From Phycisphaerales bacterium (lineage in GTDB: Bacteria; Planctomycetota; Phycisphaerae; Phycisphaerales; SM1A02), in contig JAKVBU010000008.1 in the NCBI GenBank assembly GCA_022446885.1, positions 1-64,000 of the forward strand: a stretch of DNA of 64,000 bases, given 5' to 3'. The translations under genes and the position numbers were made by a program. Positions 55,801-58,568 of this stretch are shown here, piece by piece. Each line of letters begins with the position of its first letter. Position 1 is the stretch's first letter. The notes under the pieces were generated by a model that saw only the letters and a list, made by a program, of their open reading frames with translations, was not told the origin of the DNA and ran no database searches.

Positions 55801-57414
55801 TCAGTACTCACCGTCGCCTGAGGCCTTGCTCTCCTTGGCTTCGGCGATGGCACAATCGGTGGTCAGGAGCAGGCCCGAGATGCTCGCGGCATTCTGCAGG
55901 GCGACCCGCTCCACCTTGGTGGGCACGATGACGCCGGCCTTGAGCATGTCGGTGTACTCGCGGGTCATGGCGTTGAAGCCCCAGGCGTCGTCGGTGGCGT
56001 CCTCGACCTTCTGGGCGACGATCGAGCCTTCCATGCCGCAGTTCTCGGCGATCTGACGAATCGGAGCGCTCACCGCACGGGACACGATGTCAACGCCGAT
56101 CTTCTCGTCGCCACGGGCCTTCTTGCGAGCGGCCTCAAGCGCCCGACGAGCACGGAGCACAGCCACGCCGCCGCCGGGCAGGATGCCTTCTTCGACGGCT
56201 GCCCGACAAGCGTGCAGGGCATCTTCGACGCGGGCCTTCTTCTCCTGCATCTCAACTTCGGTGGCAGCACCGACGTTGATCTGGGCCACACCGCCGGCGA
56301 GCTTTGCCAGCCGCTCCTGGAGCTTCTCGCTGTCGTAGTCGCTGGACGTGTTCTCGATCTGGGCGCGGATCTGGTCGATTCGCCCCTTGATGTCAGACGT
56401 CTTGCCACCACCTTCGATGATCGTGGTGGCGTCCTTCTCGATAGTGACCTTCTTGGCCCGCCCCAGTTCGCGAACGTCCAGTTCCTCGAGGGTCATGCCG
56501 AGCTCTTCCATGACGGCTGTGCCGCCGGTGAGCACCGCGATGTCTTGCAGCATTGCCTTGCGGCGATCACCGAAGCCCGGCGCCTTGACGGCCGCAACCT
56601 TGAGCACGCCTCGCAGGCGGTTCACGACGAGCGTGGCCAATGCCTCACCCTCGATGTCCTCGGCGATGATGAGCAGGCTCTTGCCGCTCTCGGCGACCTT
56701 GCCCAGCACGGGCAGAAGTTCCTTGGCGTTGGAGATCTTCTTCTCGTGAATGAGCACGTGGCAATCTTCGAGCGTGGCCGTCATCTCGGCGGTGTCAGTG
56801 ACGAAGTGCGGCGACAGGTAGCCCTTGTCGAACTGCATGCCTTCGACCAGTTCTACATGCGTGTCGAGGCTGGATCCCTCTTCGACCGTGATGACGCCAT
56901 CCTTGCCCACCTTGTCCATCGCCTCGGCGATGATTGAACCGACGGTTGCGTCTTGATTGGCGGCGCAGGTGCCGACCTGGGCAATCTCGGACGACTTGGT
57001 GACGCCCTTGGACATGTCGGCCAGTTCATTGCAGCACGCTTCGACTGCCAGATCGATGCCCCGCTTGATCTGCGTGGCATTGGCACCGGCTGTGATGTTT
57101 CGCAGGCCCTCGGCAAAGATCGACTCGGCGTAGACCGTGGCGGTGGTGGTGCCGTCACCGGCGTCCTTGGAGGCCTTGGAGGCGACCTCCTTCACCATCT
57201 GGGCCCCCATGTTCTCCCAGGCGTCCTCCAGTTCGATTTCCTTGGCGACGGTGACGCCGTCCTTGGTGACGGTCGGAGCGCCGAAGGACTTTTCCAGCAC
57301 GACGACTCGGCCTGAGGGGCCCAGCGTCGTCTTCACGGCCTTGGCGAGCTTCTGAATGCCCCGGAGCATGTGCTCGCGGGCTTCGATGTCGTATGCAATC
57401 TGCTTGGCAGCCAT
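55801..57414 (-). CDS. groEL: Chaperonin GroEL
   Basis: 537 residues. Nucleotide-binding motifs are standard: [19 protein letters not shown], the catalytic DGTTTATV region, and [20 protein letters not shown] precedes the ATG. It forms the folding chamber together with the GroES encoded upstream. The C-terminus is [10 protein letters not shown]; the usual flexible GGM repeat that fills the cavity floor is absent, and the sequence GPSGRVV replaces the common GPKGRNV. Planctomycetes often have several GroELs, so this may be a specialised copy. Confidence 0.97.
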
Positions 57415-57453: not shown

Positions 57454-57735
57454 TCAGACCGTCGAGACCCGGTTGTGGGTGGACGGGATGAACTCCTGTT
57501 CGTTTGTTGTGTCCAGATCCGTTCGGGCCTGCCACATGGCGGACACATGGCTGGCGTCGATCCAGATGTTGTTCTGGCGGGTCTTCACGTGAATGCCGTT
57601 GGCGCTGTGCAGTTCCTCGACAGCGACGACGTTTCGCAGCTCCATTGCCCGCTCATCACCACGCAGGATGATGTCGAGCTCCTGATCGGTATCGATCATG
57701 TCCCTGAGGACTCGGATGACGGGGCCACGTTCCAT
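57454..57735 (-). CDS. Small conserved-type protein between groES and groEL, unknown function
   Basis: 93 residues starting 9 bases after AGGA. It lies between groES (27 bases upstream) and groEL (39 bases downstream) on the same strand, so it must share their mRNA. The sequence shows alternating strands: PVIRVLRDMIDTDQELDIIL, MELRNVVAVEELHSA, GIHVKTRQNNIWIDASHV. This could form a small beta barrel of SH3/Sm type; that is inference. No Cys, no signal peptide. Codon use is like its neighbours, so it is a real gene. I do not recognise it. Confidence 0.72.
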   Translation of the reverse strand: MERGPVIRVLRDMIDTDQELDIILRGDERAMELRNVVAVEELHSANGIHVKTRQNNIWIDASHVSAMWQARTDLDTTNEQEFIPSTHNRVSTV

Positions 57736-57762
57736 TGGTGTGTGTCCTGCTTGCGGGTCAGA

Positions 57763-58053
57763 TCAGCTGATGACGCCGAGGATGTCGTCCTCGGTCATGA
57801 TGAGCAGCGCGTCGCCGTCGATCTTCACTTCAGTTCCGGCGTATGAGGTGAAGATGACTCGGTCGCCCTGCTTTACGGTAAATGGCAGATACTCGCCCGT
57901 CTCCTTGTTGAGGACGCCCGAACCTGTAGCGATGATCTCGCCCTCGGCGGGCTTGTCCTTGGCGGACTCGGGCAGGTAGATCCCCGCGTCGGTGCGGGAC
58001 TGTGCTTCAGCGCGGCGGACGAGCAGTTTGTCGCCCAGAGGCTTGACCTTCAT
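57763..58053 (-). CDS. groES: Co-chaperonin GroES
   Basis: 96 residues with AAGGAGAAG before the ATG. The family features are MKVKPLGDKLLVRRAEAQ, the mobile loop around RTDAGIYLPESAKDKPAEGE, and the end VKIDGDALLIMTEDDILGVI. It caps the GroEL chamber. Its start overlaps the stop of the upstream receiver-like gene (ATGA), so the two are coupled. Confidence 0.97.
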   Translation of the reverse strand: MKVKPLGDKLLVRRAEAQSRTDAGIYLPESAKDKPAEGEIIATGSGVLNKETGEYLPFTVKQGDRVIFTSYAGTEVKIDGDALLIMTEDDILGVIS

Positions 58054-58568
58054 TTCACTTCTCCTTGGGGGCCCTGCTGGTGCGGGCCGGTTGCAGGGCC
58101 GACCTGCGATTGTGTCGGCCAGAGGTCTTTGTAGTGCCGCCGCAGGGCGCGGCGGAGGGTGTCCAGCAGCGATTCCAGCCGCATTGGACGATCGAGGACA
58201 GCAAATGCGCCGTCACGGAGGGAGTCGATCAGGCCCCTGGCATCGGCGCGGCGAGTCGCCTGTCGGGGTCGAACGACAATGGTCGGTGGTGGGCTCTCCA
58301 GCCGCCTGAGCAGCTGCAGAATTCGTACGCCAGCAGCCTGCGTGGGGCCGCCGGCTCGCATGGGAATCTCCATGTCAACCACGGCGATGTGTACCGGATT
58401 GCTGGCGATGAGCGACTGGGCTTCTTCTGCAGTCCCCGCCTCCATGGTTCGGATACCCATGGGCTCGAGCAGGCGAGGCGCCTGCCGAACGGCAGCCTCA
58501 TCACGCCACCCCCCGTAGGAGAGCAGGAGATTGAGCCGGCTGGCGTCATTCTGGGCGCGGATCCGCAT
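58050..58568 (-). CDS. Degenerate receiver-domain protein upstream of groES
   Basis: 172 residues. The fold looks like a CheY receiver: first strand LNLLLSYGGWRDE, then RLLEPMGIRTMEAGTAEEAQ, and the phospho-acceptor strand HIAVVDMEIPM with Asp65. The acidic pair after the first strand (normally DD/DE) is replaced by SYGG, and the conserved Lys near the end is Arg in VLDRPMRLESLL. So it may be a pseudo-receiver that does not take a phosphate in the normal way. The tail is Gln/Gly-rich. It overlaps groES by four bases and is the first gene of the chaperonin operon. Role unknown. Confidence 0.75.
   Translation of the reverse strand: MRIRAQNDASRLNLLLSYGGWRDEAAVRQAPRLLEPMGIRTMEAGTAEEAQSLIASNPVHIAVVDMEIPMRAGGPTQAAGVRILQLLRRLESPPPTIVVRPRQATRRADARGLIDSLRDGAFAVLDRPMRLESLLDTLRRALRRHYKDLWPTQSQVGPATGPHQQGPQGEVK

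Follow-up and report, generated by a model that had tools for sequence, protein, structure and literature searches.

A small gene of an undescribed family, here called X, lies between groES and groEL in the window (the whole 64,000-nucleotide stretch that was analysed, from contig JAKVBU010000008.1 of the Phycisphaerales assembly GCA_022446885.1). The linkage of X to the chaperonin operon, and specifically to one chaperonin copy, is well supported (X is missing at the genome's other two groEL genes), and its product probably works with or on that one chaperonin. The features of the locus are collected in Table 1.

Table 1. Genes and intervals at the X locus, in positions of the window
Feature	Positions	Strand	Description
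X	57454..57735	-	93 aa, ATG start; undescribed family; core of ~75 residues, variable tail of ~18 residues
Conserved core of X	57511..57735	-	AlphaFold2 pLDDT ~90+ over residues 1-70; invariant columns
groES	57763..58053	-	96 aa; Cpn10 PF00166, E 2.1e-30
groEL	55801..57414	-	537 aa; Cpn60 PF00118, E 2.5e-75
Receiver-like gene	58050..58568	-	172 aa; degenerate response-regulator receiver; first in conserved cluster
groES-X gap	57736..57762	-	27 nt; holds CAGGA Shine-Dalgarno-like motif

ORF calls and a Pfam scan of the window gave the minus-strand order receiver-like gene, groES, X and groEL, in which groES and groEL were intact, kept their canonical order and were flanked by short gaps. An earlier note, made from the sequence alone, had placed a 93-aa reading frame with short gaps and a ribosome site of its own between the two chaperonin genes, without giving the strand. 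Its coordinates were right; groES stop and X start are 27 nt apart, X and the groEL start 39 nt, and CAGGA, a weak Shine-Dalgarno-like motif, is located about 10 nt upstream of the X ATG (AGCAGGACACACACCA-ATG). Neither a sigma-70-like promoter nor a terminator was found on the same strand in the gaps between groES, X and groEL, which fits a single mRNA without proving it. No CIRCE heat-shock element was detected in the window when up to 3 mismatches were allowed. At the other end of the operon (55801-55850), the GroEL of the window's genus does not have the Gly/Met-rich tail (e.g. AGGGMDDMDY) that many relatives keep.

The receiver-like gene overlaps the groES start by 4 nt, and its match to PF00072 (E 1.8e-5, 25.3 bits) was under the cut-off of 30.2. 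A degenerate receiver-like protein is encoded before groES throughout the window genome's own family (f1) and the Phycisphaerales families f2-f6 (f1-f6; loci L169-L188), and none was seen in the class-level relatives checked. The protein keeps a phospho-acceptor-like D (HIAVVDxxIP), but the acidic pair normally present near the N-terminus is missing, and DRP stands in place of the expected K-P.

Homologues of X in other genomes encode 73-94 aa with 45-82% identity. Across 33 sequences, 11 columns were invariant, mostly T52-N55-I57-W58-D60 and R71-D73, and the most conserved stretch spans residues 52-73 (T..N.IW.D...V....R.D). Nucleotide differences were mostly synonymous, as in an example pair with 6, 2 and 29 differences at the first, second and third codon positions, and dN/dS was ~0.03-0.12 for the majority of pairs; a single very close pair, which had few changes, gave 0.28. 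Judged from these comparisons, X is under strong purifying selection. A chance open reading frame was ruled out by the homologues, the codon-position pattern and the conserved place in the operon. We also considered a degenerate copy of GroES and rejected it, as X gave no Cpn10 match and the GroES-X profile comparison had P 0.4 over 12 columns.

The named records nearest to the window are marine Phycisphaerales MAGs. We surveyed 132 f1 genomes of 85% completeness or better from 40 genera, finding X in 55 of the genomes and 22 of the genera; no credible match was obtained beyond f1 in the order-wide and phylum-wide genome samples. The sole order-level match outside f1 (L061, E 8e-5) fell in a reading frame that resembles a glycoside hydrolase and contains a stop, and was discarded as a chance match. 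The earlier note had suggested a chaperonin-linked gene, and had named a lack of homologues, or homologues unlinked to groESL, as findings that would speak against this. Homologues exist, and at all 94 fetched X loci, some of which overlap, X lies directly behind groES; no unlinked copy was seen among the loci examined. The conservation of gene order, which that note had proposed to check, was complete, the order always being receiver-like gene, groES, X, in some cases a second small gene (Y), and groEL. In the survey of f1 genomes each genome gave one match only, and all fetched X and Y loci were in the chaperonin operon. The window's genome has three GroEL genes, and X is found at one of them only. 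The other two form a tandem around a groES on another contig (G000:C65:168756-172391; L165-L167), lack both X and Y, and are 55-58% identical to the window's GroEL.

Many relatives, including some f1 genera, have neither X nor Y in an otherwise intact operon. Mapped onto a combined GroES and GroEL tree, X requires 7 state changes and Y 11; early presence followed by repeated losses is the simplest reading, although these counts would fit gain as well as loss. The 7 changes of X suggest that its slot between groES and groEL has been kept through long divergence. X and Y came and went repeatedly while groES and groEL stayed, so chaperonin function in many relatives does not depend on X.

At some X loci, about 300 nt separate X from groEL, and this space is occupied by Y, which is likewise undescribed. 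Y encodes 66-78 aa, stands either behind X or, in many relatives that have no X, alone between groES and groEL in families f1-f4 (e.g. L062, L071 and L076-L078), and has the invariant residues P, E, D, K and TDG mid-protein. It was present in 51 of the 132 f1 genomes and in 63 of 151 genomes sampled across the order, with f2, f3 and f4 among the families that carry it. None of the genomes sampled from f5, f6 and the phylum's other classes yielded Y, and in those of their operons that were read, groES and groEL are adjacent. Matches to Y in f17 (E 0.002-0.006) covered short stretches of ~560-aa reading frames and were set aside as probably due to chance. In one genome (L030, 4220-4507), remnants of Y lie in different reading frames and Y appears to be decaying; a close relative (L031) has an intact Y.

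Profile comparisons of X with Y using hhalign gave P 0.2 and 0.058 and, with larger alignments, 0.012 over 77 collinear columns, and the score was matched by 7 of 300 column-shuffled controls. Taken with the shared predicted fold, the similar length, the common slot and a turn, D-A-x-x-V/I, that precedes the final strand in both proteins, this weak similarity is most likely explained by distant paralogy of X and Y.

The AlphaFold2 model of X, generated from the X alignment, was confident over the range given in Table 1 and unreliable in the tail; the other four models scored lower (50.7-70.8). Its predicted elements are a helix (residues 3-12) and strands at residues 19-24, 31-34, 36-41, 47-52, 56-60 and 64-70, matching the earlier description of the protein as beta-rich. 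Y, predicted independently, had the same element order with a mean pLDDT of 95.8, so that both models consist of one helix followed by a small five- or six-stranded barrel. The best PDB matches in Foldseek covered the whole barrel and were Listeria Hfq for X (E 0.022, probability 1.00) and Aquifex Hfq for Y (E 0.057, probability 0.99), and neither protein had a match with E < 0.001. With VIA, X aligned with the WYL domains of DriD, PafBC and BrxR (Z 5.2-6.0, rmsd 2.6-3.2, ~68 residues) and with Hfq (Z 4.8-5.4), and Y gave Z 5-5.7 to a mixture led by CgeA, GatDE, DriD and Hfq; VIA warns that Z-scores near 5 can mean only a common arrangement. A viral fold library returned many weak matches to small phage barrels (lowest E 0.003) and no informative relative. 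An Sm/SH3-like small barrel is thus a safe description of X as a predicted fold. Since the scores are middling for a small and common fold, "Hfq homologue" is not a safe label.

We tentatively favour a reading of X as a lineage-specific accessory or regulatory subunit of one Phycisphaerales chaperonin system that acts by protein contacts. The X core has a median net charge of -5 (Y, -4; pI ~5), and this acidity favours protein contacts over generic nucleic-acid binding. The codon usage of X is nearer to that of its own groEL than the usage of the upstream receiver gene is at 89% of 46 loci (Wilcoxon P 1.6e-9, a significance that is overstated since the loci are related) and is less near to it than that of groES, which fits appreciable expression rather than a rare regulator. 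The purifying selection on X and this leaning of its codon usage towards groEL lend some support to the earlier suggestion of a chaperonin "cofactor or adaptor", a role that we infer. According to the accessory-subunit reading, X would be translated from a presumably shared groES/groEL mRNA, and its putative partners, contacted via the conserved surface around strands 4 and 5, would be GroES, GroEL or some of their clients. It might assemble as an Sm-like ring, and it would modify the chaperonin without being essential to it, since it is absent from many relatives.

Several observations count against this reading. The position in the operon is also compatible with a separate role in heat stress, and the small-barrel fold has a known nucleic-acid side, as in Hfq and WYL proteins. 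In addition, the comparison of operons with and without X or Y, the latter being numerous, revealed no separating site in GroES and one weak site in GroEL, and thus no sequence sign of an obligate interface.

The strongest competitor, which we consider rather unlikely, is that X (and Y) form an Sm/Hfq-like RNA-binding ring on groESL mRNA or stress RNAs, tuning their translation or stability and replacing an absent Hfq. The nearest Foldseek matches of both proteins are indeed Hfq over the whole barrel. Hfq (PF17209) was not detected in 14 Phycisphaerae genomes, including the window's, by a search that found it in the positive controls E. coli, B. subtilis, Caulobacter, Thermotoga and M. jannaschii. 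Sm proteins carry their Sm2 RNA-pore motif in strands 4-5, and the most conserved stretch of X falls at that position in the register suggested by the secondary structure. Against this stand the lack of any Foldseek E < 0.001, Z-scores all near 5, and the lack of a sequence match of X or Y members to the PF17209 profile at E up to 1. Moreover, since both proteins are acidic and do not have the Hfq Y-K-H motif, generic RNA binding is not expected. Borrelia BB0268/FlgV cautions against naming X or Y Hfq by resemblance: it was once called Hfq, and later work showed that it does not bind RNA (PMC11607428).

Less likely again is that X is an independent stress-response protein that shares a heat-shock mRNA and makes no contact with GroES, GroEL or RNA. 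This would agree with the scarcity of differences in groES and groEL between operons with and without X or Y, and the operon place by itself shows co-expression at most. However, none of the X and Y loci fetched from the 132 f1 genomes lay outside the operon, each genome having one match only, which is unusual for a hitch-hiker over such divergence, and two related-looking small genes fill the same slot.

A further proposal, which we regard as quite improbable, is a bacterial chaperonin of three or four components (GroES, X and/or Y, and GroEL) in which X and Y are Sm-fold subunits that form a ring. This ring, of seven-fold or other symmetry, would either dock on GroEL or GroES and serve as an additional lid or gating factor, or couple the chaperonin to RNA in a lineage without Hfq. 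Least probable of all is a WYL-like sensor domain for a small ligand or single-stranded nucleic acid that regulates the operon, since the WYL domains of DriD, PafBC and BrxR gave the best VIA Z-scores for X but all were below 8, no Pfam WYL match was obtained at E up to 1 and no DNA-binding domain is attached. We rank the accessory subunit first, followed by the RNA-level regulator, the co-expressed bystander and the WYL-like sensor. X, kept in its slot over many genera and tied to only one of three chaperonins, offers a direct lead to a chaperonin with a specialising extra subunit; an Sm-like RNA regulator in the heat-shock operon of a lineage where Hfq was not found would be equally useful.

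Finally, we compared X and Y with known families and systems. Neither X nor Y matched any Pfam or NCBIfam family above its cut-off. Searching the PDB by sequence with X gave chance-level matches only (ARL2, E 0.02 and up). Hfq and bacterial Sm-like proteins resemble X and Y in length and in the predicted helix and five- or six-stranded small barrel. They differ in the Y-K-H motif (Sm2, Y/F-K-H, at the turn between strands 4 and 5), where X reads I-D-A-S-H-V and Y reads V-D-A-E-R-V when the register is taken from secondary structure. X and Y also differ from Hfq in their lack of a sequence match, their acidity and the position of their genes inside groESL. WYL domains (DriD, PafBC and BrxR) have the same small-barrel core as X. 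In contrast to X, which is a single domain of ~75 residues with a short low-confidence tail, they are parts of larger regulators with DNA-binding domains.

The actinobacterial DUF3107 proteins (PF11305; PDB 7rur, 7rus and 9nip), one of which is titled "Small RNA-Binding protein (SRB)", show a weak likeness to the C-terminal 35 residues of Y and not to X. PF11305 gave half-length matches in 16 of 28 Y members (best E 9e-4) and no match to X at E up to 1. In the PDB search, the match of Y to a DUF3107 structure was non-significant (E 0.14), and DUF3107 was absent among the 50 fold matches listed for Y. The likeness was seen with L071 and other Y members, and the SRB title belongs to 9nip, a close relative by the same match.

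Few bacterial operons have been studied as much as groESL, and to our knowledge no extra conserved genes between groES and groEL have been described. The literature searched on genes in this position, on DUF3107/SRB and on Hfq in Planctomycetes held nothing on the X/Y family. Compared with the canonical groESL operon (Cpn10-Cpn60), the operon described here has one or two extra small genes between its chaperonin genes and a receiver-like gene in front of them. Both the fold and the operon have precedents; their combination is, to the extent that we could check, new.
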